A DNA stretch of 64,000 nucleotides. It comes from Phycisphaerae bacterium. Lineage in GTDB: Bacteria; Planctomycetota; Phycisphaerae; Sedimentisphaerales; SM23-30. The notes under the pieces were generated by a model that ran no database searches, was not told where the DNA came from, and saw nothing but the letters and a program-made list of their open reading frames with translations. Shown here in pieces: positions 35,568 to 61,750 of the stretch. The DNA lies in NCBI GenBank assembly GCA_016342495.1, contig JAEIOG010000004.1:1-64000 (forward strand), read 5' to 3'. Position 1 is the first letter of the stretch, and each line of letters opens with the position of its first letter. The position numbers were made by a program, and so were the translations under genes.

Positions 35568-35640
35568 AAGTGAACAGGGTCAAGGCATAAGGCATAAGGC
35601 AATATGTTATTGAAATATTTTGGCCGTGCGTCTAGCATTC

Positions 35641-35831
35641 GGCCTGAAGGGCCAGTATAGCATAGCCCAGGGCAAAGCCCTGGGTAAAACCATGCCCCCC
35701 AATAATTGCGGTCTGAAAGACCAGCATAAATTTTGTTGGCTTGATTGTATTGCCCTTACAGGGCGTAAAAGTTTTTTGTCTTTTATCCCCAGGGCGTTGC
35801 CCTGGGCTGAGGTATATTGCCCCTGCGGGGC
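35641..35831. repeat. Array of six GC-rich hairpins ('CCCAGGGC' type)
   Basis: Six perfect short stem-loops in 191 bases: GGCC/GGCC (35641-35653), CCCAGGGC/GCCCTGGG (35666-35684), GGTCT/AGACC (35710-35722), GCCCT/AGGGC (35752-35764), CCCAGGGC/GCCCTGGG again (35788-35806) and GCCCC/GGGGC (35819-35831). The two CCCAGGGC hairpins and their flanks (TATA-type and AAAA-type strings) are arranged as inverted halves. Conceptual translation gives SPGQRPGD on one strand, a string often seen in spurious annotated proteins of other phyla. It is non-coding repeat DNA. Confidence 0.75.
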
Positions 35832-35870
35832 GTAAACTATTGGGGTTTGTCAATGATATTGAATGATTGT

Positions 35871-36050
35871 AACATTTTAGCCATATGTAGCAAAACAGCA
35901 CGAAGCGGCAGCGCCGTGCTAAGGCATTATGCCATATTACATGGTGATTAAAGTAATTTTAGCGTTAAACCACAGTTTATGTTTTTAGCTGGGCGCTGCC
36001 GCTACCAGCTGTTTGTTGGCTAATTAACGCCGTTTGTTTCACGTCGCTAA
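35871..36050 (+). repeat. Dispersed ~180-bp element, copy A
   Basis: About 180 bases nearly identical to the reverse complement of 61567-61750. It has two stem-loops: arms AGCACG/CGTGCT at 35897-35920 and AGCTGG/CCAGCT at 35987-36010. Their loops contain GCGGCAGCGC (35905-35914) and GCGCTGCCGC (35993-36002), exact reverse complements. It lies between two convergent genes. No transposase is encoded. Confidence 0.85.
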
Positions 36051-36069
36051 AGTGTTACAAATTATTTGC

Positions 36070-54690: not shown

Positions 54691-54801
54691 TAATCTCTTC
54701 TTGTTTTCCGTCCGGATAAGCTGATTTTGTATAAAAATGGCCCTGGCGCTACTGATAAAGGGGTCATATGGTTATCGGGCGATTTATTATAAGGGTTATA
54801 A

Positions 54802-55220
54802 GACTTCGAATGCTCTATTTGACGTCTGGAATGGAGCATTCCACGTCTGGGATAGAGCATTCGAGGTCTCAAGAAGAGTCTTTTAAGTCTGGGATAGAGC
54901 ATTTGACGTCCGGAATAGTCCATTTGATGCCTCAAACAGAGCATTTGAAGCCTCGGGTAGAGCATTTAAGGTCCGGTTAACGATATTTCAGCTCTAAAAC
55001 ATCAAATATTAGACTTCAAATGGAGCATTCCAGACTTCAAGAAGAGCATTCCATGTCTCAAATGGAGTCTTTGAAGTCTCAAAGAGAGCATTTAAGGCTT
55101 CAAACAGAGTCTTTTAAGCCTTAAATGGAGCATTCCAGACCTCCAATGAAACATAACAGGCTTCAAAGAGAGTCTTTTAAGTCTGGCTTGGAGTCTGTCA
55201 GACCTGCAATGCTCTGGCTC
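54802..55220. repeat. 21-bp tandem repeat array, about 20 degenerate units
   Basis: Units of 21 bases with consensus about GTCTCAAATGGAGCATTTGA plus one base. Several units are partly palindromic around a GAG centre, for example GGAATG-GAG-CATTCC. Because 21 is a multiple of 3, open frames on both strands show seven-residue periodicity (SGIEHLT / PRVEHLR on plus, LYPRxxM on minus), but start and stop positions are not conserved and no ribosome-binding site fits. I treat it as non-coding. Confidence 0.8.
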
Positions 55221-61509: not shown

Positions 61510-61566
61510 ATTAGAAAAATGATAATCCAATGGGCCTGGGCCCATGTTTGAATAAAAGGTAACTTT

Positions 61567-61750
61567 TTAGCGACTTGAAGTAAATGGCGTTAATTAGCCA
61601 ACAAACAGCTGGTAGCGGCAGCGCCCAGCTAAAAAACGTAAATTGTGGTTTAACGCTAAAATTGCTTAAATCATCATGGAATATGGAATAATGTCTTAGC
61701 ACGGCGCTGCTGCTTCGTGCTGTTTTGCTTCAGATAGCTAAAATCTTACG
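61567..61750 (-). repeat. Dispersed ~180-bp element, copy B (inverted relative to copy A)
   Basis: Reverse complement closely matches copy A at 35871-36050 across the whole length, with differences scattered. Hairpin arms AGCTGG/CCAGCT (61607-61630) and AGCACG/CGTGCT (61698-61721) are intact. One loop change (GCGCTGCTGC) keeps pairing to GCGGCAGCGC as a G-T pair. It occupies most of the gap between ftsW and murG, inside the presumed operon. Confidence 0.85.

Follow-up and report, generated by a model that had tools for sequence, protein, structure and literature searches.

A probable IS66-type MITE carrying an inverted doublet of REP-like hairpins in a Phycisphaerae bacterium

We have characterized a short repeated element of a Phycisphaerae bacterium which is very probably a MITE moved by an IS66-family DDE transposase, with an 8-bp target duplication, and which carries an inverted doublet of REP-like hairpins (a REPIN-like arrangement). 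Two of its copies are located in the window, i.e. the whole stretch of 64,000 nucleotides that was analysed. An initial, sequence-only reading of this DNA had described them as lying in opposite orientations, which they do: copies A and B are approximately 90% identical and span positions 35869-36058 (+) and 61559-61749 (-), their true ends being situated a little beyond the limits first assigned to them. The same reading had suggested that they might be a BIME/MITE-like mobile unit, and this suggestion is endorsed by the many copies, the terminal inverted repeats, the 8-bp target duplications and the presence of an IS66-family transposase element that shares its ends. The features of the two copies are as follows.

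35869..36058 (+): MITE copy A, 190 bp, GTAA to TTAC; 22 full copies aligned, ends set by the terminal repeats and flanking duplications
35861..35868 (unstranded): left target-site duplication of copy A, GAATGATT, identical to the right one at 6/8 positions
36059..36066 (unstranded): right target-site duplication of copy A, AAATTATT
35869..35891 (+): left terminal inverted repeat, GTAACATTTTAGCCATATGTAGC, with matches at both ends of the genome's own IS66 element
36036..36058 (-): right terminal inverted repeat, minus-strand sequence GTAACACTTTAGCGACGTGAAAC
35896..35922 (+): REP-like hairpin unit 1 of copy A, stem AGCACG/CGTGCT, core AGCGGCAGCG
35923..35984 (+): spacer between the units, holding a small palindrome, GGCATTATGCC (from the alignment)
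35985..36011 (-): REP-like hairpin unit 2 of copy A, inverted, with stem AGCTGG/CCAGCT and minus-strand core AGCGGCAGCG
61559..61749 (-): MITE copy B, 191 bp, in the ftsW-murG interval and 9 bp upstream of the murG start codon
61750..61757 (unstranded): target-site duplication of copy B, CTTTTATC on the minus strand, 7/8 identical to its partner
61551..61558 (unstranded): target-site duplication of copy B, minus-strand sequence CTTTTATT
61696..61722 (-): hairpin unit 1 of copy B
61606..61632 (+): hairpin unit 2 of copy B

A search of the whole genome (5.4 Mb in 221 contigs, ~95% complete) revealed at least 30 copies of the element, full or partial, at 78-100% identity. Alignment of the copies with their flanks identified 22 as full-length (188-202 bp), with a mean pairwise identity of 85%. 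Nearly all are intergenic or placed at gene edges, and their gene neighbourhoods are unrelated to each other; the matches of the proteins encoded beside copy B to FtsW and MurG are clear, yet below the NCBIfam curated cut-offs.

Both ends of the 22 full copies are formed by terminal inverted repeats of approximately 23 bp, with the consensus GTAACATTTTAGC. Once the element had been delimited at GTAA and TTAC, 15 of these copies proved to be bordered by 8-bp direct repeats that agree at 7-8 positions, compared with 4 of 462 mismatched pairs, in which the left and right flanks were taken from different copies. This length replaces the 6 bp obtained in a first reading of the alignment. A clear 8-bp duplication is absent from the other seven full copies, some of which are clearly decayed. 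Taken together, the terminal repeats and duplications show that the element is mobile. The duplications also speak against an integron attC site, a candidate whose consensus boxes did not fit the sequence. The published signature of IS66 comprises ends of 20-30 bp starting with GTAA and 8-bp direct repeats (PMC11946415; PMC3281130).

Outside the window, the same genome harbours a multi-copy element whose left end, GTAACAATTTAGCCATGTGGAGC, is followed by an open reading frame (MEKHSVENEF...), and whose right ends, GTAACACTTTAGCCATGTGAAGC, are found directly after the C-terminus of a transposase. Both ends break contigs, as repeats do, and we infer that they belong to one IS66 element. The N-terminus of the split transposase is 46% identical to positions 31-99, and its C-terminus 64% identical to positions 435-493, of one 497-aa protein encoded in another genome of the order. 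The latter is an IS66 transposase (Pfam DDE_Tnp_IS66, 6.8e-39; NCBIfam transpos_IS66, above cut-off), and its element is bounded by GTAAGATTTTAG...TAAAGTCTTAC and flanked by the 8-bp duplication GGATTTCC; the 80-aa N-terminus taken alone matched neither Pfam nor NCBIfam. This assembly contains no complete IS66 copy with the MITE ends, the middle part probably being missing as a result of the collapse of repeats. An autonomous IS66-type element with ends matching those of the MITE is represented in this genome by pieces at the contig ends, and mobilization of the MITE by its transposase is most likely. A search of the genome with PF03050 detected nothing but a piece of another IS66 element, one with GTAACCGTTCAC ends, and a plasmid search gave no match. 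Two additional repeat elements terminate many of the contigs; the first is IS66-like and has the same GTAACCGTTCAC ends, and the second starts with CAGGGCTAACGCATG.

Other MITEs, with the same ends but different interiors, occur in this genome as well as in genomes G001 and G008 of the family, and the hairpins are therefore dispensable for IS66 MITEs in general. At nine loci an IS66 end on the left is accompanied on the right by a GTAG-REP (CCATCCTAC), after which the sequences diverge, and in most of this set a clear right IS66 end is absent. IS66-ended MITEs with a GTAG-REP hairpin after the terminal repeat (e.g. TTTTAGCCAAATGTAGCACAAGCTTCCAGCTTGTG) were noted at eight loci of genome G001 and at two others. 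The carriage of REP cargo by IS66 MITEs may be a general pattern across the family.

Each of the two hairpins is a unit of one 27-nt palindrome, CAGC-NNNN-AGCGGYARCG-NNNN-GCTRA, with conserved flanks, (C)AAAC at one edge and AA at the opposite one. Within the window there are four matches to it (≤3 mismatches) versus 0.05 expected, and genome-wide there are 95 (≤2 mismatches) versus 0 for a reversed control pattern. No convincing copies were found in 160 other genomes of the order, this genome alone having more than two matches; the three single-mismatch matches in two of those genomes (one and two apiece) are probably due to chance. Pattern scans across the GTDB collection yielded either nothing or a single hit, in a Pseudomonadaceae contig which shows no other resemblance, and this hit was attributed to chance. 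The unit is found in several settings. Besides the IS66 MITE and a second repeat family, these comprise a shorter repeat that also holds another palindrome (CCTTGATTTTTGTCCAGAAAATCAAGG), the vicinity of GTAG-REPs, and solo occurrences, in which only AAACAGC...GCTAA is kept. The inverted doublet also recurs in the second family, with other ends (L043, L102 and L092). Together with L081, these loci bear inverted hairpin doublets and have ends near TGCGAGAATTTTTTCTGGCATC.

Further repeats were noted in the window. Two inverted copies of the Acido-Lenti-1 RNA (RF01687) lie directly to the left of copy A, at 35640-35684 (-) and 35788-35832 (+). This two-hairpin sequence, which looks like a dispersed repeat, is also placed beside solo hairpins at two other loci. 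In addition, positions 54796-55152 contain an array of 21-bp repeat units.

Changes in the hairpin arms, for which covariation had been considered, proved to be compensated across the hairpin classes. Among 50 distinct sequences the first variable pair occurs as all four Watson-Crick types (46/50 paired) and the second as three (44/50). For both pairs together, 93% of the positions in these sequences (which are related, and so do not represent independent events) are paired, against a mean of 47% and a maximum of 62% in 5000 shuffles; in a sliding control, pairing of the variable positions drops to 22-65%. When the sequences were collapsed to stem classes, five fully complementary combinations out of 12 remained (AC/GT, TG/CA, GG/CC, CC/GG and CA/TG; permutation p ~0.02). 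Divergence within the MITE copies amounts to 2.7% in the stem columns, 6.6% in the loops and 10.8% in the other inner columns (p = 0.0003 for the stem columns against the last group). Three processes could contribute to the low divergence of the stems, namely selection, a recent arrival of the units and conversion among copies; in one copy, the arm of unit 2 sits in unit 1, as conversion would produce.

The nature of the hairpins brings to mind another origin, namely that the element is a plain REPIN or BIME moved by a RAYT (IS200/IS605-like) transposase, with the GTAACA ends as mere flanking sequence. The palindrome is short, extragenic and present at high copy number, as in REPs, and the inverted doublet behaves as a unit with alternative hairpin folds, as in REPINs. 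When the whole strand is folded in silico, units 1 and 2 pair with each other over the full length of the element, which corresponds to the long-hairpin alternative of REPINs, whose single strand folds either as two hairpins or as one long hairpin (PMC3116915). Six RAYT-type (Y1_Tnp) genes were identified in the genome, outside the window; however, not one of the six is flanked by the AGCGGYAGCG hairpin in this ~95% complete genome, and the palindromes which do flank them have other sequences. Furthermore, the ends of the element are IS66 ends with 8-bp duplications. Target duplications of this length are not expected from RAYT-type transposition. Nor is there a GTAG or CGTC tag beside the stem of the solo or MITE hairpins, the feature which defines the two tagged REP super-families (PMC3733652). 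Movement by a RAYT thus appears improbable, and since the element has neither the tag nor the RAYT link, we have classified the element as an IS66 MITE with REPIN-like contents and not as a REPIN. Most of the RAYT-type genes are flanked by inverted palindromes of their own, which in two cases lack GTAG (AGGTGACTGTCCCC and CAAGGGACAATCATAATTGTCCCTTG).

The sequence-only reading had also proposed a kissing interaction, in which the two hairpin loops would pair in RNA or single-stranded DNA and their complementarity would be under selection. The loops of copy A, GCGGCAGCGC and GCGCTGCCGC, are GC-rich and, as had been reported, exact reverse complements over 10 nt. Copy B has one G to A change, in the AGCGGCAGCG loop of hairpin 1; the G-T pair thought to preserve the interaction there exists on the plus strand of the window only, as the other strand has an A-C mismatch. 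Across 23 copies the loop variants do not covary: C or T at one core position, the variant seen most often, occurs without regard to the other loop (10/8/4/1, Fisher p = 0.61), and 5/23 loop pairs are perfect complements, a little below the 7.1 expected. Moreover, the core AGCGGYAGCG is also kept in solo, partnerless hairpins, and an inner G-C/C-G stem within it leaves the loop less than fully open. The loops are complementary because a single hairpin, whose loop is conserved, makes up both halves of the doublet in opposite orientations. Such an arrangement always produces complementary loops, and complementarity alone is therefore no sign of kissing; selection for a loop-loop interaction seems to us very unlikely.

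Least credible of all is a structured non-coding or cis-regulatory RNA, distributed genome-wide and kept for host function: although the whole element folds strongly (z = -5.0 as RNA and -6.1 as DNA), its stem columns are better conserved than the remainder and copy B is located between ftsW and murG, no Rfam family was detected above threshold over the element (only Acido-Lenti-1 adjoins it), its mobility is evident from the terminal repeats and duplications, the neighbourhoods of its copies have nothing in common, and the other genomes of the order hold no convincing copies.

If the element is an IS66 MITE, as we favour, an IS66-family DDE transposase would act on its ~23-bp ends, leaving the 8-bp target duplication. 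The palindrome may once have been spread by an IS200/RAYT-like single-strand transposase or by another hairpin-binding protein, and the hairpin doublet would have been captured by the MITE or have become its core. When single-stranded, the element could fold as two separate hairpins or as one long one. Hairpin stems are not known to be required for IS66 transposition. Those of the MITE are nonetheless better conserved than any other part of it, which raises the question of what maintains REP-like hairpins without a cognate RAYT. One tentative answer, which we consider possible though doubtful, is that they represent an untagged, lineage-specific REP-like family, with a fixed core (AGCGGYAGCG) and interchangeable, nearly always complementary stems, which has lost its RAYT or never had one, and which nowadays is dispersed mostly as the cargo of foreign transposon ends, above all those of IS66 MITEs; some hairpin-binding protein would keep the stems of this family.

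No MITE/REP chimaera of such a kind is described in the open-access titles and abstracts that we searched. The element unites two classes of small bacterial mobile DNA which are usually handled apart, the MITE of a DDE transposon and the REP-type doublet, and it can be compared with the known systems on both sides. With the GTAG- and CGTC-tagged REPs it shares extragenic stem-loops of 20-40 nt present in many copies, whereas in place of the defining tag its hairpins are flanked by (C)AAAC and AA. It resembles REPINs and BIMEs in the inverted palindromic pair with a spacer, the two-hairpin or long-hairpin fold, the solo units and the compensating changes (PMC3116915), and differs from them in having neither a tag nor a RAYT flanked by its palindrome, and in lying inside the ends of a DDE transposon, with a target duplication. 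The likeness to IS66 insertion sequences and MITEs extends to the GTAA-starting terminal inverted repeats, the 8-bp direct repeats and, in this genome, a transposase element sharing its ends; what distinguishes this 190-bp, non-coding element from them is its interior, which consists of two REP-like hairpins.
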